64,000 nucleotides of DNA from Promethearchaeati archaeon (GTDB taxonomy: Archaea > Asgardarchaeota > Heimdallarchaeia > Heimdallarchaeales > Heimdallarchaeaceae): NCBI GenBank assembly GCA_013166775.1, contig JABLTJ010000008.1:52564-116563 (forward strand). Reading direction: 5' to 3'. Made by a program: the position numbers and the translations under genes. Below the pieces are notes generated by a model. The model did no database searches. It had not been told where the DNA came from and worked only from the letters and a program-made list of their open reading frames with translations. The first letter of the stretch is position 1; every line of letters starts with the position of its first letter. Below, piece after piece: positions 969 through 45,839 of this stretch.

Positions 969-1649
969 TTATTCCTCATCATCTTGACAGTACATCGCGC
1001 CTGATTCCATTAGATGACCATCTTTAGCTTTAGTATCTAAGTATTTTTTATTGTATACATTCGGTGTGATTGCAACAGGGATTCTATCTGTAACATTAAC
1101 TCCACTTTCACAAAGTCCTGCAACTTTAGTTGGGTTGTTGGTTATCAATTTTAGAGATTTAACTTTCAAAGATTTTAGAATATCTACTGCAACCAAATAA
1201 GACCTCTCATCAGCTTTGAAGCCCAGCAATTCATTTGCTTCATTTGTATCATACCCCATCTCTTGCAGAGAATAAGCTTTTAGCTTGTTAAACAACCCTA
1301 TTCCTCTACCTTCTTGTCTTAGATAAATTAAAATTCCATCATCTTCTTTTGATAGAATATTTAATGCATATTCCAATTGTTCTCTGCAGTCACATCTCAA
1401 AGATGTAAAAACATCACCTGTTAGGCACTCAGAATGAATTCTAACTGGTATGTTTTCTTTATTAAATGGGCTCCCTCGATAAATAACGGTATGTTCTTTC
1501 ATATCCCTTAGGCTAAGAACACCAATAATTTTAAATTCACCAAATCGTGTTGGTAATTCGGCAAGGGATCCAAAATGTATTAATTCTGTATCCTCTAAAC
1601 CCAATTCGATGATTTTAGTCCGTACCTTTTTCTCAACGTCTTCTGTCAA
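969..1649 (-). CDS. ribA: GTP cyclohydrolase II
   Basis: This enzyme converts GTP to 2,5-diamino-6-ribosylamino-pyrimidinone phosphate, formate and pyrophosphate, the first step of riboflavin synthesis. The zinc-site signature HSECLTGDVFTSLRCDC (C-x10-C-x-C) is intact at about residues 72-88. RQEGRGIG and the NNPTK motif follow at about 111 and 171. At 226 residues it is a single-domain GCH II, without the fused DHBP synthase seen in many bacteria. Many archaea use the unrelated GCH III instead. The start is TTG (TTGACAGAAGAC) with GAGG about 9 nt upstream; no ATG lies nearby. It is the last gene of a leftward sirtuin-acylphosphatase-ribA run. Confidence 0.9.
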   Translation of the reverse strand: MTEDVEKKVRTKIIELGLEDTELIHFGSLAELPTRFGEFKIIGVLSLRDMKEHTVIYRGSPFNKENIPVRIHSECLTGDVFTSLRCDCREQLEYALNILSKEDDGILIYLRQEGRGIGLFNKLKAYSLQEMGYDTNEANELLGFKADERSYLVAVDILKSLKVKSLKLITNNPTKVAGLCESGVNVTDRIPVAITPNVYNKKYLDTKAKDGHLMESGAMYCQDDEE

Positions 1650-1705
1650 AGCAGTTCCTCTCTCAACTGAATAATGTTTTTAGCTTTTTTAATCTTAAGT
1701 TCTAA

Positions 1706-1996
1706 CTAATAAGTTATTTTGAAGTTGGGTAGATCTTCCTTTGAATCTTCCCACTTTACATCTGTATTGTAAACTTTAGCAGAAGGAGGTCCTACTCTTG
1801 CAAAAGAAATCAGTTTAGTCAAATCCTCTTCCTCACCTTCCGCAACAATTTCTACTGAACCATCTCTCACATTTCTGACTGTCCCTTTTAAACCAAGTTT
1901 TTGAGCGAAATCACGAGTATTAGCTCTGAAAAAAACACCTTGAACCATTCCATATACTTGAATTGTCACTCGTTTTTTATTATTTGTCATTTCCAT
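1706..1996 (-). CDS. acyP: Acylphosphatase
   Basis: This small alpha/beta enzyme hydrolyses acyl phosphates such as carbamoyl phosphate. The signature VYGMVQGVFFRANTRDFA carries the catalytic Arg in VFFR, and the catalytic Asn lies in GTVRNVRDGSVEIVAEG. Length (about 96 residues) is normal. The ORF track starts at a TTG (2008). I prefer the ATG at 1996, preceded by GGAAG at 5 nt; the ATG at 1990 is also possible. The start lies inside the 3' end of the sirtuin gene, so the two are translationally coupled. Confidence 0.9.
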   Translation of the reverse strand: MEMTNNKKRVTIQVYGMVQGVFFRANTRDFAQKLGLKGTVRNVRDGSVEIVAEGEEEDLTKLISFARVGPPSAKVYNTDVKWEDSKEDLPNFKITY

Positions 1997-2777
1997 CACT
2001 TCTTCCAACTTTCTGAATAATCTTATCTACAAATTCTGGTAAAGTTTTTTCACACGGACCATAAATAGAATAATCACTTAAATCAGATATAGGTGTTTTT
2101 TCTATATTGAATTCTATAATAACGGATTCGTTACGTTTTGCTAGATAAGGTAAAGAAGCAACGGGATGCACTATTCCTGAAGTTCCGATAATTAACAAGA
2201 TTTGTGCTTGCAAAGTCCAATCGAGAGCTATGCTCCAATTATTGCTTTCTAAAGTCTCCCCAAACCAAACAACATCAGGTCTAAGCAAATTTTCCTTGCA
2301 TTCAGAACATAAAGGTGGTTCCATATCTTTTTGAGCTAATTCTAGCTTATCCCATCTTTCAATGTGTGAACAAGAGGTGCATCTGGCATATCTTATTCTC
2401 CCGTGAATTTCTACATAGTTTTTAATACCTGCAATTTCATGTAGACCGTCAACATTCTGAGTGATGACTCCAGTAGCAAGATTAGCTTTCTCTAGTTTTT
2501 TTAGAGCAATATGGGCAGGATTTGGTTTAGCATTCAGTAAAATTCTCATTCTAGCTCTATACCATTCCCAGACTAGTTTAGGATCTCTAGCAAAAGCATA
2601 GGGTGTTGCTAAATCTTCTGCTCTATATTGATTCCATAATCCATCTTCACCACGAAAGGTTGGCATACCAGAAGCTTTGGAAATACCAGCTCCTATTACT
2701 GAAACTATACTATGATCTACTAATTCGAGTTTTTCAACAACGGAATCAATATTCATATCCTCAATAATATCTCCCAT
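1980..2777 (-). CDS. cobB: SIR2-family NAD-dependent protein deacylase (sirtuin)
   Basis: It removes acyl groups from lysines using NAD. Visible motifs are GAGISKASGMPTFRG (NAD binding), TQNVDGLH with the catalytic His in EIHGRI, and a four-Cys zinc ribbon (CTSC...CSEC) before RPDVVWFGE. The sequence WEWYRARM has the Tyr-x-x-Arg spacing that in class III sirtuins (SIRT5, CobB) recognises negatively charged acyl groups. A desuccinylase activity is therefore plausible but inferred. Length (265) is typical. ATG start. It heads the sirtuin-acylphosphatase-ribA run and overlaps the next gene. Confidence 0.93.
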   Translation of the reverse strand: MGDIIEDMNIDSVVEKLELVDHSIVSVIGAGISKASGMPTFRGEDGLWNQYRAEDLATPYAFARDPKLVWEWYRARMRILLNAKPNPAHIALKKLEKANLATGVITQNVDGLHEIAGIKNYVEIHGRIRYARCTSCSHIERWDKLELAQKDMEPPLCSECKENLLRPDVVWFGETLESNNWSIALDWTLQAQILLIIGTSGIVHPVASLPYLAKRNESVIIEFNIEKTPISDLSDYSIYGPCEKTLPEFVDKIIQKVGRSDGNDK

Positions 2778-2834
2778 AAATAAAAATGTATAGTGAAAAG
2801 ATAAAATGAGATTACTATCGTATCTTTGATGATT

Positions 2835-3935
2835 TTAGATATTAAATTTACGTTTCTTTCCTGTAATCTCTTGATATAGTTTGTCGATACTATTAGCATA
2901 CTCAGGATACCTAGTATATGCAATTTGGAATGCCATATCTAATTCGGATTCTTCTAGATTAGCAAATTGCTGTTTTGGATTTGTTGTTAAAGCATAATAC
3001 TGTGAGATTATACTTGTGCCTGAATATCTGATGATTTTTACAACTTCTTCCTCTAATTTTCTGACTACTGCATCTATTATATCTTTGTGAGCATATCCTC
3101 CGCCTTCTGCGTCAGCTTGTATTCTTTGTATAATCTTCTTAGAGAAATCACTCTCTTCTCCTCCTTTTGCTGAACCAACCGTCAAATCACAAATAACATT
3201 TGCAGGATAATTTGATAGAAGTTCCGGAGTTGCGAATAAAACATCGAACTGATCAGGTGAAACATATTCAGGTGGGAATAGTGATACTAGTAATTCTCTT
3301 CTAGGTTGAAATGATTGGAGAGAAGATAGAAATGGTTTAACCATCTCTTTTGAGCACATTACTATTACTGGTTTTCCATTTAGTAATGCATGAACTACTC
3401 TATCCTGTCCTTTGATGATTAGTCTCATAAAGAAATAAGGGGACGCGGCAGATCTTACTATTTCTATTGTCTGAACACCAGCTGCAAGATCCTGTTTACT
3501 TTCTAATATAGAATTGAGATTTGTTGCCCAATTGAATACTCTAGTCTTTAGTGATTCATCCATTTGATAGCCTGGCTCATACAAAAGAAGACCTGATATT
3601 TGTTTTGCTGTGTTTGAACTGTGATAATTGAAAACTGGCACTTTTGTGTATAATTGTGATTGTAATTCTTCTGGGATAATAAAGGTAAGACAAGCCATTG
3701 TTATGGGAGATCTCTTGCTTTTGCAAGGAACACCAAAGAAGAAAGAGTAAGAAACTCCACCTATGTCATGAAGTGGCATAACTGCACTCGCTTCTCTTAA
3801 AATATCAGTAGCTGCAGCTCCCATAAGCATACGAATAGATATCTTCTGAGATTCTTCTTCAGATAGATTATCAAAGTATATTGCTTTTGTTCCAACTGTA
3901 TCATCAAATACGCTAAAACAAACTTTGTTTACCAT
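2835..3935 (-). CDS. Predicted longin/DENN-like protein (function unknown)
   Basis: I do not recognise a named archaeal family. The N terminus (KVCFSVFDDTVGTKAIYF) resembles the first hairpin of u-longin domains such as those of NPRL2 and DENN proteins. Residues about 170-260 read like a cDENN core: a hydrophobic strand (ALLNGKPVIVMCS), a helix, LFPPEYVSPDQFDVLFATPELL, and then a buried-looking strand ending in ICDLTVG. A helical tail follows. There is no membrane segment or signal peptide. Eukaryotic DENN modules act on Rab or Rag GTPases, and Rab-like GTPases occur in this window, but the match is by eye and remote. The start is the ATG at 3935; the track's TTG at 3938 is less likely. Confidence 0.4.
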   Translation of the reverse strand: MVNKVCFSVFDDTVGTKAIYFDNLSEEESQKISIRMLMGAAATDILREASAVMPLHDIGGVSYSFFFGVPCKSKRSPITMACLTFIIPEELQSQLYTKVPVFNYHSSNTAKQISGLLLYEPGYQMDESLKTRVFNWATNLNSILESKQDLAAGVQTIEIVRSAASPYFFMRLIIKGQDRVVHALLNGKPVIVMCSKEMVKPFLSSLQSFQPRRELLVSLFPPEYVSPDQFDVLFATPELLSNYPANVICDLTVGSAKGGEESDFSKKIIQRIQADAEGGGYAHKDIIDAVVRKLEEEVVKIIRYSGTSIISQYYALTTNPKQQFANLEESELDMAFQIAYTRYPEYANSIDKLYQEITGKKRKFNI

Positions 3936-4088
3936 CAATCTTTATTGGCGTTAAGTTTCTATTAAATGTATTGTTGAGGGAAATCAAGAATTGAGTAGTT
4001 GGCGTTTAAGAACCTTAAAATCTTGAATGTAGAACAAGAAGAAACATATTGTTTTTAAAGGCTATTTACATAGATAAAATACCTATCC

Positions 4089-4098: not shown

Positions 4099-4428
4099 GT
4101 GGTAGAAAATGGAGAAATTCAAAAAGAACTAACTGAACGGTTAGGTAGAACAAAACGACTAATTCTCATAGAGCTTTCGAAGGGAGCTGCCGGATATAAG
4201 AAACTTTCAAAGAAGCTGAAAATCGGTTTAGACACAATACGTTCTCATGTTAAAACAGGTAAGCATTCAAAATCACTAACGCAACTCGGTCTGATAAAAC
4301 AAGAGGAAAGGGGATGGTCTGTAACTGATTTAGGTTTTGATGTATTGGAATTATTGAAGAGAGATCCAGAATTTGCTCCCTTCTTTGTCGTTGACCCAAC
4401 TTTAAAAGAAAAAGAACTTGATTCCTAA
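4099..4428 (+). CDS. Small winged-helix transcriptional regulator (ArsR-like)
   Basis: Residues about 12-90 form one winged helix: helices around LILIELSKGAAGYKKLSKKL, a recognition helix GLDTIRSHVKT, and a wing in GLIKQEERGWSVTDLGFDVLELL. At 109 residues it is just one DNA-binding domain, without effector domain or metal-binding cysteines, so the signal it senses is unknown. It stands alone, divergent from the DENN-like gene and convergent with lysS. The GTG start is supported by GGTGAT. Confidence 0.75.
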   Translation: MVENGEIQKELTERLGRTKRLILIELSKGAAGYKKLSKKLKIGLDTIRSHVKTGKHSKSLTQLGLIKQEERGWSVTDLGFDVLELLKRDPEFAPFFVVDPTLKEKELDS

Positions 4429-33727: not shown

Positions 33728-34294
33728 ATGAGCATGTTTGGTTCGTTTTCCTCATGGTTGAGAGCAAAACTAAAGAAAGAGCAAAAGGCTAAAATATTGA
33801 TATTAGGGCTGGATGCAGCAGGTAAAACAACCTTAACTCGATTTATGAGATTTGGTAGATTTGCAGAAAACCTCACACCGACCATCGGGCAAAACATTGA
33901 GTCGTTTGAATTTGAAGGATGGACTATAACAGCTATAGATGTTGCAGGACAATCACATTTTCGTTTCCTATGGGAAGCACATTATCCAGGATGTAGTGCT
34001 GTTATTTTTGTTATTGATGCAGCTGATATTGAGCGTCTTCCTGAAGCAAGAGACGTACTCAAGACTCATGTTTTTAACAACCCTTACATGGAAAATGTGC
34101 CTACATTAATCATGGCAAACAAGCAAGATCTCCCTGGAGCAGTAGAGGCCCCATTATTAATACAAATGTTAGGGTTGCATCTTGATTTGAAAGATAGAAC
34201 ATTCGCTGTTTTTGATACTAGTATTCTACATGGGAAGGGAATTAAAGAAGCATTTACTTGGCTTGTAAATGAACTAGATACACATCTAGAATAA
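33728..34294 (+). CDS. Arf/Arl-family small GTPase
   Basis: Eukaryote-like GTPase. P-loop GLDAAGKTT is the Arf-family signature. TPTIGQN is switch I with its Thr, DVAGQ is the G3 motif (a mix of Arf DVGGQ and Ras DTAGQ), ANKQDLPGA is G4, and G5 is a weak DTSIL. An amphipathic N-terminal helix (MFGSFSSWLRAKLKKE) precedes the fold, as in Arf proteins. The Gly2 needed for myristoylation is absent. Length 188. It stands alone with its own promoter. Likely role in membrane or cytoskeletal regulation, inferred only from family. Confidence 0.93.
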   Translation: MSMFGSFSSWLRAKLKKEQKAKILILGLDAAGKTTLTRFMRFGRFAENLTPTIGQNIESFEFEGWTITAIDVAGQSHFRFLWEAHYPGCSAVIFVIDAADIERLPEARDVLKTHVFNNPYMENVPTLIMANKQDLPGAVEAPLLIQMLGLHLDLKDRTFAVFDTSILHGKGIKEAFTWLVNELDTHLE

Positions 34295-36244: not shown

Positions 36245-36271
36245 GTGAAAAACTTACCTAAAAGTAACATA

Positions 36272-39200
36272 ATGACTCTGCATTATCTTGACCAGCCTTC
36301 TACAACAGGAGATATATTCTCCTTTCTTGCTGAGGAAATAAAAGATTGGTTTACATCTAGCTTTCCTAGTGGATTTACTCTACCTCAGTTGTATGCTATT
36401 CCATCCATACACAATAGAAGAAATACTCTGGTTTTTAGTTCGACAGGATCAGGTAAAACTTTTGCAGCATTCTTAGCTGCGATAAACGAACTATTTGTGG
36501 AATCTAAGAAAGGTACTTTGAAAGATCAAATTTATGTTCTTTATATCTCTCCCCTCAAAGCATTGGGTAATGACATAAGAAAAAATTTAGAAGAACCCTT
36601 ACAAGGAATTCAAGATTTAGCTGCAGCAAATAATATAGTTATCCCCAAGATAAGAGCAGAGGTGAGGACAGGAGATACAACTCAAGCTGAAAGAACTCGA
36701 ATGCTGAAAACACCCCCACATATATTGATTACAACACCTGAGAGCTTAGGTTTAATTCTCACATCACCAAAATTTTCTCAACATCTAAAGAGTGTAAGGT
36801 GGATAGTACTAGATGAAATTCATGAAGTAAGCTCCAACAAAAGAGGAGTATTCTTGTCTCTTTGTTTGGAATACCTTCAAGCAGAAATTACTAATCAAAA
36901 AGTTACAAAAATAGGATTGTCAGCAACTCAAGCACCAATTGAAGAGATTGCTAGATTTTTAGTGGGTTTAGATGATGATGGAAAAGAGAATGAGTGTTAC
37001 ATAGCTAATTTACCTCCACAAAGAAAGCTGGATTTGGAGGTTAAAAGTCCAGTTAAAGATCTTCTGCACACACCTTATGTTATGGCCCAAGAAGGAATTT
37101 ACACTATACTTTCAGACCTAATTCTTGATCACGAAACTTCTATTATTTTTACTAATACAAGAAAAGGAGCTGAAAGTGTTGCTTTTAAACTAAAAGAGTT
37201 TCTTGGTGATGAATACTCATCTTTAATAGCTGTTCATCATTCGAGTTTATCTAGAGAGATAAGACTTGATGTTGAAGATAGATTAAAAAACAATGAATTA
37301 TTGGCAGCTGTAACCTCAACATCTCTAGAATTGGGTATAGACATAGGAAGTGTAGAGCTAGTAGCACAGATAGGCTCTCCAAGAACTGTAGCAAAGTATA
37401 TGCAGAGAGTTGGACGAAGTGGGCACTCTCTTGATAGATTTGCAAAAGGAAGGTTAATTGTTACAGACAGGGATGATGCAATAGAATGTGCTGTAATAAA
37501 TAAAAGCACTTATAGTCGTGACATAGATAAAGTTCAAATCCCGAGAAACTGTTTGGATGTCCTTGCACAATTTGTTGTTGCTATGTCAATAAACAAAAGG
37601 TGGCAAGTGGATGAAGCTTATCGATTAATAAAGAGATCTTATAATTTTCAATCACTTAAATTTACAGATTTTATTAATGTCCTTGAATATCTGGGAGGTC
37701 ACAATCTTGAAATGGAGGAAAGGAAGGTATACAGAAAGATATGGTATGATCACCAGGAAAAGGCATTTGGAAAGAAAAGAAATACACGCATGATATTTTA
37801 TACAAATGTAGGAACAATCCCAGATAGTTCAGATTTCAGAGTTGAATTGGAAACATATCGAACAAGACTAGGAATGCTTTCTGAGAAATTTGTAGAAAGG
37901 TTAACTCCAGGAGATATATTTGTTCTTGGAAGTCATACATACCAGTTCAGAAGAACTGTTGGATCTAGAGTTGTGGTCTCAGAAGCGTTTGGAAGAAGAC
38001 CAACTATACCAAACTGGATAGGAGAAGACCTACCTAGATCATTTGAGTTATCACAACAGATTGGTAGATTCATTGAAGTAGTTGCTCAAAAAATCCAAAA
38101 AGAAGATGATGTTGAAGTCAAAGATTGGGTAATAAGGTCTTTTCAAGTTGATGAAATAGTAGCTCAGACAATAGTCGACTATGTCAGAGAACAATTACTC
38201 TTCTTGAATACTGTTCCAAGTGATAAAAGATTGTTAATTGAATCTTTCATCGATCCACAAGGAAGATTGAATCTTATCTTTCATTGTTATTATGGAAGAA
38301 GAGTAAACGATGCGTTATCTAGATCTTTCGCATATGCAATAGGAAAAAAGATTGACGCGGATGTAGGTTCCGCAGTAAACGACAATGGTTTTCTATTAAT
38401 GCTCCCCTTGAATAAAATGATTGATACAGCAATCATTCCAGATTTGGTATCTTCAGAAAATCTTGAAACAATACTCAAACAAGCTATAATTAACACCGAA
38501 CTCTTTCAAACAAGATTCAGACATGTTGCAAATAGAGCATTAATGATTCTTAGAAGGAATGTAGATCGAAATGTTCCTGTTTCCAGACAATCTATGTACG
38601 CAAAAAGAATCTTCACAGTAATTAAAGATCAAGAAAATTTCTGTATAATTAAAGAGACATATAGAGAAATATTAAGAGACTATATGGATCTAGAAAATTC
38701 AATAAATGTTCTCAACAAATTAGAGAAAGGGCTTTTCAAATATGAAATCACACCTCTTTCTGACATTTCTAGCCCCTTCTCTCATGGTATAGTGTTGTTG
38801 GGAGTAGCAGATATCGTGCAAATTTCAGATCGTAGTGCTTTACTTAGAGAATTACATCAACAAGTTCTTGCTAAAGTATTTGGAAAAGAAGGAACTAAAG
38901 AAATTCTCTTCAGCAAAGAATTAGTTACTAGAATCTTTGATAATAGAAGCTACAAAAATGACGAATTACCCATTTCTACACTAAAACAATTAAGAAGTGC
39001 AATTAAAGCACTAGCTCCAATCAGAACAATTGAAAGTGTTGATCCCAGTATCTATCATTCATCTATTTCAGATTCCAAACAGATAAAAAAATGGGTTCTT
39101 TCTCTCCATAATAGTAAGGAGCTTTTAGAGATTCACATTGCTAAAGGAGAAAGAAGAACCATACTCGTTAATGATTTTCAGATTTTCTGGAATGTGTATG

Positions 39201-41995
39201 GTAAATCTATTGAGCTAACAGATATAGATAAGAAAATCCTGAAACTACTGAAGACCAAACATCCACTAGATTCTGAGGATATTGTAGAAGAAATAGATGA
39301 ATCCAAGGATGTTTTAGAAAAGAGATTAAATGTTCTAGAAAGCGCAATGCTTGTTGTAAGAACTGATTTCGAACTCTTTGGAGGAAGAGAAAAATGGAAG
39401 TATTGTTTAATCGATGAGATTATCCCAGAGGATTTGAGAAAACAAGCAAAACGATTAGATCCGGAGGAATGCTTGAAGAAACTCCTGTTAAGATATCTTA
39501 AGGTTCATGGCCCATCCACAGCAAAAGAAATAGTAGAATATCTAAGAGTAGAGGAAGAGAAAATAGTAAGAGCTTTAACTGAGTTAGAACAGAAGAGTGA
39601 AATACTCAAAGGTCAGATAATTGAAGCTTCAGTTGAACCTCAATATATAAGATTAGCAGACAGGGAGCTGTTAAGAAACTTAAGCAATAGAAAACCTGAT
39701 TCTCTGATATTGACTCCAGAAGAATTAAACTTCATTCATTACTATTTTACTGTTGAGACATATCTTGTTCAAGAAACTAAAGGACAAGAAAGTATTATTG
39801 AAATCTTGGATACTCTGGGATCAATTGAGGAATTGAGTTCATTAGCAGTGAGAATTCAAGATTATGATATCGGTTGGGTAAGAGATTATATTGAGAAGAA
39901 TGAGATTATAAGGGGAAGATTCAGTCACGGAAGAATCGCTTATGTTACAACATCAATGTTTCCCTATTACTACACTGCATATCGAGAACACTTTAAACTA
40001 ACTCAAGTTGAGGATAAAATACTTTCAGCAATAAGGAAATATGGACCTCTGACGAAAAGAGAAATTATTGAATTCACAGAATTGGATGATGATGTTGCAC
40101 AAGAAAGTATCATGATACTTGACAAAACTCTTCAACTGGTGAGGAAATCACTTACAACAGACTCATTCCTACCTAAACAATTTATACCCAATGTCTATGA
40201 TATCTCTTCAAGATATCTACCTTCAGGAAATCTTCCAAGTTATGAAGAAAGCCAAAAATATATCCTACTCAAATTTATTGAGTCGTTGGGGCCAGTTTCT
40301 CTTATAGAACTTACTCACATTCTAGGATTTAGATACAGCGATATCGAGAAAATAATTAAGGACCTTCTTCAGAAGAAGAAGATTATTGAAAAGAAATTAA
40401 CTGAAAGAGAAACAAATTACTATATGACAAAGAACCGATTCGACGATATTTCCAAAATTAAAGAATCTCTGATTTATACTGCATTAAGAGAAGATGAAAA
40501 AATATTAATTCTACCAAGAAACGATCCCTTCACGAAGTTAGGACTTAGGCTTCATTTAAGAGATGTGTATGGAGAGGGACTTATAGATCCGCTGTTGTTA
40601 GATGGAGGAGTTGTAGGATCAATAGAATATAAGCTCTATAAAGGTCAATATCTACAAATCTATGATTTAAAGATAAATGATGAAATTTTTTTCAATCCAA
40701 TAATTTTGCAGAAGATTGCTGCAGAACTGGTCAAATATACAAGAAGAATTCATAGGGTTTTAAGTTTACAAATAGAGGATATTAATGGAAAGTCTGTTTT
40801 ATCAAAATCAAACAAGTTTGTTACATCAACTCTAGTTAAGACAGGATTTAAGCTAATAAAAGACACTCTAGTTGGAGGGGATACGATTACTAGAGTTTTC
40901 AATAAGAAAACAGTTGATAATTATATCCTAGATAATCTGTGGTTAAAGAGACAAGTTCCAGCTTTGAATGCTGACTCATTGCTATCTTTGATAAACAAAT
41001 TTGGCTTCATCAGATTCAATGAGATTATAGCAAGATTCCCAGAAAGCATGACAACAGTGATTGTTTTTCTCATAAATCAACTACTTGAAGATAAAAGTAT
41101 CATCTGTCAAAATAATACACTTTACTCTCTTTCTTTTGCTCGTTATAGAAAATGTGGTCTGATCAAAAGAATGAAATTAAAATCAGAGTTTGATAAACTC
41201 TATAATCACATTCAAAAGGGACCCGTTAGTCTTTCCGAGCTAAATAGTAGATGGAAGGATTCTGATATAAGTATCAAATCTACTATATCAGCTCTTGAAG
41301 CTAATATGCTTATTGGAGTAAAATCAATAGATAATCAGTTCAAACCTTTGGAATATTGGGACATTAAGAACTTCATATCTAAAATTGATGCTGATCTAGC
41401 AGATATTAAGAAAAGATACATCAAACATTTAATGAACTGCTTTGGACTAGCATCAGAACAACAGATATCGGAAAGAGGTTCAATCCCTGGTGTTCTTACT
41501 AAGGTTAGAGTCAAAGAAATCTTGTCTTTACTTATTGATGATGAAGAGGTTTTAGGTGGTCGGTTCGTAGAGAATGATCTTAATTTCTATTATATTACAA
41601 AAGAAAATTATGATGAACTTGAAATGAGGGAAAAGAGAGAACAAGACGTCGAGTACACAACAAAAGAAGAGATGCAGAGATATTATCTTATTCACCCAAA
41701 TGACATAGCAAGTATTGTGTTTAATGGTAATTTACCTGAAAGATTCGATGTCTCATCTGACACTTATTTAATAGTCCTGAATATGAAGCTCGCAGCTCAA
41801 TGTAAACTAGAATCTTCTGATGAAAAGCAGACTAAGATAAAGAATCTAAACATAGCTCCGTGGCTTCAATCCGAAAGTTCCTTCAACTACATAATAAACG
41901 CTCTAGAGGATATTTCGTTGTTCCATGTGGGTGAAACTGAATCAATAATCATTGAGAGAATCAATGGACTTTCTACAAATAGGTTGGTGATCTAA
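36272..41995 (+). CDS. lhr: Giant Lhr-type superfamily 2 helicase with winged-helix array
   Basis: The N-terminal ~850 residues are an Lhr core. Counted from the track's GTG start, motifs are SSTGSGKT (about 65), TTPESL, LDEIH (about 189), LSATQ and QRVGRSGH (motif VI). Archaeal Lhr is usually ~850-950 residues; this one has about 1000 more. The extension holds at least six winged-helix repeats (such as LLRYLKVHGPSTAKEIVEYL and AIRKYGPLTKREIIEF). It also has an AlkZ/HTH_42-like segment ILPRNDPFTKLGLRLHL. Bacterial Lhr C-terminal domains of this kind act as DNA glycosylases, so a repair role is plausible. The next gene follows after 6 nt. Confidence 0.85.
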   Translation: MTLHYLDQPSTTGDIFSFLAEEIKDWFTSSFPSGFTLPQLYAIPSIHNRRNTLVFSSTGSGKTFAAFLAAINELFVESKKGTLKDQIYVLYISPLKALGNDIRKNLEEPLQGIQDLAAANNIVIPKIRAEVRTGDTTQAERTRMLKTPPHILITTPESLGLILTSPKFSQHLKSVRWIVLDEIHEVSSNKRGVFLSLCLEYLQAEITNQKVTKIGLSATQAPIEEIARFLVGLDDDGKENECYIANLPPQRKLDLEVKSPVKDLLHTPYVMAQEGIYTILSDLILDHETSIIFTNTRKGAESVAFKLKEFLGDEYSSLIAVHHSSLSREIRLDVEDRLKNNELLAAVTSTSLELGIDIGSVELVAQIGSPRTVAKYMQRVGRSGHSLDRFAKGRLIVTDRDDAIECAVINKSTYSRDIDKVQIPRNCLDVLAQFVVAMSINKRWQVDEAYRLIKRSYNFQSLKFTDFINVLEYLGGHNLEMEERKVYRKIWYDHQEKAFGKKRNTRMIFYTNVGTIPDSSDFRVELETYRTRLGMLSEKFVERLTPGDIFVLGSHTYQFRRTVGSRVVVSEAFGRRPTIPNWIGEDLPRSFELSQQIGRFIEVVAQKIQKEDDVEVKDWVIRSFQVDEIVAQTIVDYVREQLLFLNTVPSDKRLLIESFIDPQGRLNLIFHCYYGRRVNDALSRSFAYAIGKKIDADVGSAVNDNGFLLMLPLNKMIDTAIIPDLVSSENLETILKQAIINTELFQTRFRHVANRALMILRRNVDRNVPVSRQSMYAKRIFTVIKDQENFCIIKETYREILRDYMDLENSINVLNKLEKGLFKYEITPLSDISSPFSHGIVLLGVADIVQISDRSALLRELHQQVLAKVFGKEGTKEILFSKELVTRIFDNRSYKNDELPISTLKQLRSAIKALAPIRTIESVDPSIYHSSISDSKQIKKWVLSLHNSKELLEIHIAKGERRTILVNDFQIFWNVYGKSIELTDIDKKILKLLKTKHPLDSEDIVEEIDESKDVLEKRLNVLESAMLVVRTDFELFGGREKWKYCLIDEIIPEDLRKQAKRLDPEECLKKLLLRYLKVHGPSTAKEIVEYLRVEEEKIVRALTELEQKSEILKGQIIEASVEPQYIRLADRELLRNLSNRKPDSLILTPEELNFIHYYFTVETYLVQETKGQESIIEILDTLGSIEELSSLAVRIQDYDIGWVRDYIEKNEIIRGRFSHGRIAYVTTSMFPYYYTAYREHFKLTQVEDKILSAIRKYGPLTKREIIEFTELDDDVAQESIMILDKTLQLVRKSLTTDSFLPKQFIPNVYDISSRYLPSGNLPSYEESQKYILLKFIESLGPVSLIELTHILGFRYSDIEKIIKDLLQKKKIIEKKLTERETNYYMTKNRFDDISKIKESLIYTALREDEKILILPRNDPFTKLGLRLHLRDVYGEGLIDPLLLDGGVVGSIEYKLYKGQYLQIYDLKINDEIFFNPIILQKIAAELVKYTRRIHRVLSLQIEDINGKSVLSKSNKFVTSTLVKTGFKLIKDTLVGGDTITRVFNKKTVDNYILDNLWLKRQVPALNADSLLSLINKFGFIRFNEIIARFPESMTTVIVFLINQLLEDKSIICQNNTLYSLSFARYRKCGLIKRMKLKSEFDKLYNHIQKGPVSLSELNSRWKDSDISIKSTISALEANMLIGVKSIDNQFKPLEYWDIKNFISKIDADLADIKKRYIKHLMNCFGLASEQQISERGSIPGVLTKVRVKEILSLLIDDEEVLGGRFVENDLNFYYITKENYDELEMREKREQDVEYTTKEEMQRYYLIHPNDIASIVFNGNLPERFDVSSDTYLIVLNMKLAAQCKLESSDEKQTKIKNLNIAPWLQSESSFNYIINALEDISLFHVGETESIIIERINGLSTNRLVI

Positions 41996-45302: not shown

Positions 45303-45839
45303 GTGAGTAAAGTGCCAATGAAAATACATTCTACAAGCAAGATTGTTCTCATAGGTGATGCAAGGGTAGGAAAAACCTCGCTAGTAAGAAGGTTTGTTGC
45401 AAACATGTTTGAACCATCATACCAAATAACACTAGGAACAACAATAATGAAAAAGGACGTTGAATACTTAAATTATATCGTAACACTAGCAATTTGGGAC
45501 GTAGGCGGCCAGGAAGTTTTCAGACAAATTCGTAGTAAGTATTTTTTTGGTAGTAGTGGTGCTTTAGCTGTTTGTGATGTTTCCAATTCTAGATCTTACG
45601 ATAATCTTCCCTCTTGGATTGATTCTTTTAGGAATGTCGTTGGTGATAAACCTATTGTCTTTTTAGCTAATAAATGTGATCTGAAAGATTCACAAATTAC
45701 CGAAAAAGATGTTCAAGCTCTTATTGATAAATATGAAAATTCTGAATTTCTGTTTACTTCTGCAAAAGATGGGACCAATACAGAGAAGGCCTTCATTAAT
45801 TTAGTAAGATTGATGGTAGCTGAAGAAGATGTAATCTGA
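45303..45839 (+). CDS. Ras/Rab-like small GTPase with Arf-like WDVGGQ
   Basis: Motifs: P-loop GDARVGKTS, TLGTTI (switch I), WDVGGQE (G3), LANKCDL (G4) and FTSAKDG (G5). The body resembles Rab/Ras, but the double Gly in G3 is the Arf version. There is no C-terminal cysteine, so no prenylation. GTG start 45303; ATG 45318 (MKIHSTSK) is equally possible. It follows the MEMO gene by 56 nt on the same strand. Role inferred as membrane-associated signalling, not established. Confidence 0.92.
   Translation: MSKVPMKIHSTSKIVLIGDARVGKTSLVRRFVANMFEPSYQITLGTTIMKKDVEYLNYIVTLAIWDVGGQEVFRQIRSKYFFGSSGALAVCDVSNSRSYDNLPSWIDSFRNVVGDKPIVFLANKCDLKDSQITEKDVQALIDKYENSEFLFTSAKDGTNTEKAFINLVRLMVAEEDVI

Follow-up and report, generated by a model that had tools for sequence, protein, structure and literature searches.

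Among the longin-DENN GAPs of eukaryotes, folliculin (FLCN), a human tumour suppressor, combines a longin (Pfam PF11704) with a C-terminal domain (PF16692), while SMCR8 and C9orf72 form an ARF GAP complex in which the catalytic arginine is located on one chain. Small GTPases are abundant in Asgard archaea, for which few dedicated GAPs or GEFs have been identified to our knowledge. DENN GAPs are defined by a conserved arginine between the longin strands beta4 and beta5 (preprint, PMC12803157), and in the solved ARF1 complex the Arg147 finger of SMCR8 points at the nucleotide (PMC8213707). The multimeric eukaryotic longin-DENN GAPs are pairs, with the arginine coming from one chain (PMC8213707, PMC12803157), and an arginine finger was also proposed for NPRL2 of GATOR1 (PMC8213707). 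The DENN module itself has been presented as having arisen in eukaryotes from a prokaryotic longin/roadblock ancestor (PMC3521125), and a 2016 HMM search of archaea found only scattered marginal matches for proteins of the Rab-regulator type (PMC4915359). Longin domains, roadblock domains and numerous GTPases are known from Asgard archaea, and among these GTPases Thor-Rab behaves as though it needed a GAP or a GEF (PMC10933270). Our literature search, with supplements and most subscription papers outside its scope, returned no prior report of a DENN module in archaea, and the parts of Eme et al. 2023 (PMC10307638) that were available to us make no mention of one.

The original prediction, made from the letters of a 64,000-nucleotide stretch of DNA (the whole of which is hereafter called the window), had proposed an ORF coding for a DENN-like protein at 2835-3935. 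The source genome belongs to an Asgard archaeon whose closest named relatives are 'Candidatus Heimdallarchaeota' bins. Such an ORF is indeed present on the minus strand, and its parts are as follows:

2835..3935, minus strand: longin-DENN gene (366 aa, ATG start), supported by the ORF, by orthologues at 71-94% identity and by the structural model
3492..3935, minus strand: N-terminal longin domain of FLCN/SMCR8 type, residues 1-148 (VIA-align and Pfam matches of relatives)
3699..3728, minus strand: beta4-beta5 loop, the putative arginine-finger loop, PCKSKRSPIT, residues 70-79 (model strands 60-71 and 78-87)
3711..3713, minus strand: codon of Arg75, in the column of FLCN Arg164 (hmmsearch and hhalign alignments to FLCN)
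3450..3491, minus strand: variable linker, residues 149-162 (modelled with low confidence; every position varies among close orthologues)
3150..3449, minus strand: cDENN-like alpha/beta domain, residues 163-262 (VIA-align and SMCR8 profile match)
2862..3149, minus strand: dDENN-like helical domain, residues 263-358 (model helices)

The codon before the ATG is an in-frame TTG, which would extend the ORF to 2835-3938 (367 aa), but the ATG (codon 2 counted from the TTG) is the start used by most orthologues. The gene is considered real because orthologues of 71-94% identity occur in a fixed gene order in all but one genome of f1, the GTDB family of the source genome. Eukaryotic contamination was rejected, since orthologues in the same order recur in independently binned genomes amid ordinary archaeal genes. 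As a sole query, the 366-aa protein matched zero Pfam families, NCBIfam families or PDB sequences, and the family was therefore reached through its relatives.

The AlphaFold2 model, built on a 46-row alignment, displayed a pLDDT of 86.7 and a pTM of 0.72 (residues 149-152 of the linker fall below pLDDT 50). Residues 1-148 adopt the topology b-b-a-b-b-b-a-a and are followed by an alpha/beta domain and by helices over residues 263-358, so that the three parts of a DENN module (longin, cDENN and helical dDENN) are all present in the model; the helical C-terminus is additional to what had been read from the letters. Both the longin N-domain and the cDENN-like core expected by the original prediction were recovered: FSVFDDTVGTK, proposed as a longin hairpin, corresponds to beta1-beta2 (strands 4-11 and 15-22), and the pattern ALLNGKPVIVMCS, LFPPEYVSPDQ...FATPELL and CDLTVG corresponds to cDENN strands and helices. 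In a Foldseek search against the PDB, folliculin came first (6nzd, E 4.2e-8), followed by C9orf72 (7mge), DENND10, DENND1A, DENND1B, SMCR8, FNIP2 and the Lst4 longin, and all 15 matches with E <= 0.001 were DENN-family or Lst4-longin chains. Domain by domain (VIA-align), the N-domain reached Z 17.1 to a Lokiarchaeota longin (8yqg) and Z 15.3 to the Lst4 longin, whereas residues 163-343 reached Z 12.6 to the C-terminal crystal structure of FLCN (3v42; 171 residues, 3.6 A) and were placed on FLCN 346-558, i.e., on cDENN plus dDENN. Whole-chain superpositions were loose (rmsd 10-25 A, TM 0.3-0.46), and thus only single domains match, their mutual arrangement in the model being tentative. The protein also differs from the tri-longin RabGEFs (Mon1-Ccz1, HPS, Fuzzy-Inturned), as it contains one longin and not three, its second half aligning with the C-domains of FLCN and DENND proteins.

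Compared with the described systems, the 366-aa protein and FLCN have in common the longin-cDENN-dDENN order and an arginine in the beta4-beta5 loop (Arg164 in FLCN, Arg75 here), but FLCN is longer (579 aa) with long inserts that are absent here, identity is ~12%, and the FLCN motif ARGF is replaced by KRSP. SMCR8 and C9orf72 display the same longin-DENN build, although the archaeal protein is much shorter and a heterodimer would be only presumed for it. The cDENN-dDENN fold is also common to DENND1A/B and DENND10, with weaker scores than for FLCN (Z 9.7 to DENND1B, Z 12.1 to DENND10), but classical DENN Pfam profiles are absent among the matches listed for the protein and its relatives. For NPRL2/NPRL3, the model matches the longin fold (Z 9-11) in VIA-align alignments that mainly cover the longin, and the finger proposed for NPRL2 resembles Arg75. 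Finally, the Lokiarchaeota Roadblock-Longin protein 8yqg has the same longin type, but paired with a roadblock domain and without a DENN part.

The kinship of the 366-aa protein is drawn from its alignment to relatives of ~20% identity and from the model. A profile (A1) was made from 46 relatives at full length and then divided into an N-domain and a C-domain profile (A2). Against the PDB, the full-length profile found only the Loki longin (E 0.018) plus chance matches, and since this result was nearly empty, splitting into domains was required; phmmer with a single relative of the RGG type gave no match in the PDB. At the profile level, the Lokiarchaeota longin 8yqg was matched with E 3.8e-5, and for A2 the best PDB sequence was the cDENN of SMCR8 (E 0.0084). 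Against human FLCN (letter for letter the sequence of 6ulg), hhalign aligned each half to its counterpart (longin P 6.9e-5, C-domain P 3.3e-4), and the stretch from ALLNGKPVIVMCS to CDLTVG, which had been called cDENN from its letters, aligned with FLCN 367-423 and, as a profile, with SMCR8. Pfam Folliculin (PF11704) was matched by 10 of the 46 relatives (best 4.2e-7) and by 23 of 54 N-domains (best E 1.7e-8), and 7 individually tested relatives scored above its curated cut-off of 23.3 bits; the longin-DENN relatives above this cut-off include L027, L029, L053, L065 and L075. Note that the 366-aa protein itself has no PF11704 match, and that several relatives in the same alignment exceed the cut-off. 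C9orf72-like (PF15019) was weakly matched by 10 of the 46 relatives (best 0.003), and Folliculin_C (PF16692) weakly by 6 of 59 C-domains and 16 of 23 partner-type proteins (best ~1e-3). In contrast, the classical DENN, uDENN and dDENN families gave zero matches for the 366-aa protein and were not among the 25 best families listed for either set of relatives (46 and 59), and the NPR2 family was not among the matches listed. The original prediction had left the choice between a Rab GEF and an FLCN/NPRL2-like protein open; the matches to PF11704, PF15019 and PF16692 place the protein on the FLCN/SMCR8/C9orf72 side. The 366-aa protein is very probably a complete minimal DENN module (longin-cDENN-dDENN) of this class. 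Judged by sequence, its closest kin are the FLCN/SMCR8/C9orf72 longin-DENN GAPs and not the classical DENND GEFs, and its likeness to the FLCN class is one of anatomy, a claim that stops short of strict FLCN orthology.

The column of Arg75 falls on FLCN Arg164 in both the hmmsearch and the hhalign alignments of the profile to FLCN, and in the model the residue lies between beta4 (60-71) and beta5 (78-87), i.e., at the position that defines the DENN GAPs (PMC12803157). Residues 70-83 are strongly conserved among 18 close orthologues (12 of 14 invariant, Arg75 included, versus 43% overall), and an arginine occupies this column in 38 of 54 N-domains against a background of 3.9%. In families f5 and f6, however, most relatives of full length lack the residue, which is thus not universal, and the loop motif varies, being KRSP in the 366-aa protein versus RGG in most relatives. 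An arginine that is aligned with FLCN Arg164 and invariant in close orthologues favours a GAP over a GEF, and its loss in f5 and f6 is as expected if some chains are non-catalytic partners. We therefore consider it fairly probable that the 366-aa protein acts as a GAP through an arginine finger, either by itself or as the catalytic chain of a heterodimeric GAP. GTPase binding, GAP activity and dimerisation are inferred steps in the following scheme. A small Asgard GTPase (Rag, Arf or Rab type) would be contacted at its switch regions by the longin domain, and Arg75 in the beta4-beta5 loop would reach the nucleotide, as Arg147 of SMCR8 does. The cDENN-dDENN half would probably serve for pairing with another longin-DENN chain or for positioning the GTPase. 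A candidate partner encoded in the same genome is the 342-aa protein L002, a longin-DENN protein lacking the arginine.

Several other readings were weighed against this one. The likeness of the second half to DENN could be a memory of the predictor, the protein then being a longin with a non-DENN alpha/beta C-half; indeed, the AlphaFold2 training data included DENN structures, and the 366-aa sequence has no Pfam match of its own. Such an artefact appears very improbable, since the C-half was also found by sequence without any model (SMCR8 cDENN at the top of the PDB for A2), several members match Folliculin_C, hhalign places the C-half on FLCN 367-423, and L002, which was aligned separately, yields the same fold match. 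Accepting the DENN fold, the protein could act as a longin-DENN GEF in the manner of DENND1A/B on Rab35, opening the switch regions of a Rab-like GTPase so that GDP is released. DENND1A, DENND1B and DENND10 among the top structural matches, as well as Rab-like GTPases in the genome and in the window, speak for this activity, but it remains unlikely given the arginine conserved at the GAP position and the detection of Folliculin and C9orf72-like families in place of classical DENN or uDENN among the Pfam matches listed.

Slightly less unlikely is a non-catalytic subunit or scaffold comparable to FNIP2, NPRL3 or C9orf72, which would bind a GTPase or a partner without a catalytic residue of its own. 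The eukaryotic pairs in which one chain gives the arginine (PMC8213707, PMC12803157) and the f5 and f6 relatives without it are in line with such a role; however, the arginine and its nearly invariant loop are retained in the 366-aa protein and in all close orthologues, a point against this role.

Two further proteins of the genome carry the C-domain, namely L002 (342 aa) and L112 (454 aa). In the L002 model (pLDDT 72), residues 1-134 match longins and residues 164-328 match the FLCN C-domain (Z 13.3), while the beta4-beta5 turn is tight and without an arginine, and L002 is thus a plausible partner for the 366-aa protein. Its assignment as a roadblock-DENN protein was rejected, as this weaker model best matches longins (Sec22b, sigma adaptins). 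A second DENN architecture, with an INTU/CCZ1/HPS4-like first longin and a DENN C-domain, is represented by L112:1405-2766 (minus strand), L084 and L085; for the L112-type N-domain, the match to this INTU/CCZ1/HPS4 longin is weak (E 2.4e-4 for the best relative). The genome also encodes ORFs of ~1470-1600 aa (L113, L114 and L116) with an internal FLCN-type longin bearing an ARGG motif.

The genes around the longin-DENN gene, and one GTPase gene farther away, are:

4099..4428, plus strand: small protein, divergent, upstream of the longin-DENN gene; helix-turn-helix-like by eye, no Pfam match
1980..2777, minus strand: Sir2-type deacylase (Pfam SIR2 4e-51), the next gene downstream
1706..2008, minus strand: acylphosphatase (PF00708), overlapping the Sir2 gene by 29 bases, order conserved
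969..1649, minus strand: GTP cyclohydrolase II, RibA-like (PF00925), end of the conserved block
33728-34294: Arf-family GTPase (Pfam Arf 9.9e-44), tens of kb from the longin-DENN gene

In all f1 loci examined, the Sir2 and DENN genes are direct neighbours, the RibA-like gene keeps its position wherever the locus extends far enough (L022 excepted), and the small gene at 4099..4428 flanks the DENN gene in the majority of these loci. The fixed DENN-Sir2-acylphosphatase-RibA order, which spans 969-3935, argues for co-expression with an NAD-dependent deacylase without indicating a direct function, and a tie between a GTPase regulator and this deacylase is possible. The original prediction had also mentioned nearby Rab-like GTPases, at 45303 and 47077: both are in the same window, but they are 41-43 kb away among unrelated neighbours, and an operon link was rejected. 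The Arf-family GTPase at 33728-34294, likewise in the window, is another candidate substrate. The window also encodes a 1916-aa protein that joins a Lhr-type helicase to an AlkZ-like DNA glycosylase domain (36245-41995), and a protein with a CxxCxxCC metal-binding domain and, at its N terminus, a long repeat rich in E, Q and S (44-961).

On a larger scale, relatives of the 366-aa protein were matched in 59 of the 227 Asgard genomes surveyed, and distant full-length relatives (~20% identity) were found in families f5, f6, f7 and f16. A single ORF encodes both the N- and the C-domain in at least 42 Asgard genomes (21 of f1 and 21 others), mostly of Heimdallarchaeota type, and several genomes encode two or three longin-DENN proteins each. 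PF11704 was detected in 88 of the 227 Asgard genomes, in 40 of them with a score over the cut-off; 14 control genomes gave no match. The C-domain profile was detected in 62 of the 227; in a wider set of 392 genomes, which is less than a full survey of prokaryotes, the count stayed at 62, with none seen in the ~165 genomes outside the phylum. Some relatives may already bear an automatic 'Folliculin' label in public databases, given that they score above the Pfam cut-off, and what is new here is thus the identification of the full module with its arginine rather than each single label.

Other domain combinations were observed as well. In another Asgard genome, one protein combines the FLCN-type longin with a RagA-like GTPase and, at the C-terminus, a roadblock-like part (L077:569-1984, minus strand; L079 has the same architecture, judged by its length and N-domain), and in L078:891-1955 (minus strand, other Asgard genome) this longin is fused to a Rab-like GTPase; such fusions tie the domain to small GTPases. 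Tandem pairs of DENN C-domains were found in f7 genomes (L086:757-2994 and L089:699-2399, both minus strand), and the FLCN-type longin is combined with a different C-terminal half in L048:1514-2632 (plus strand), L050, L080 and L096, that of L048 showing a weak NucS/nuclease-like match.

Altogether, a longin-DENN module with an arginine at the catalytic position in Asgard archaea suggests that this class of regulators existed before eukaryotes. With a full longin-DENN protein, catalytic arginine included, present in the closest archaeal relatives of eukaryotes, the origin of the class shifts to before eukaryogenesis. The broader proposal, to which we give about an even chance, is that the entire longin-DENN GAP system predates eukaryotes: paired longin-DENN proteins of Heimdallarchaeota-type archaea, one with and one without the arginine finger, would switch off Rag-, Arf- or Rab-like GTPases, and FLCN-FNIP, C9orf72-SMCR8, GATOR1 and the DENND GEFs would descend from this Asgard toolkit, which, if so, had already joined cDENN-dDENN with several kinds of longin. 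The question of origin thereby becomes testable with one protein, a few GTPases of the same genome and one point mutant, and the 366-aa protein offers a minimal model for a protein family with roles in renal cancer (FLCN) and ALS/FTD (C9orf72).
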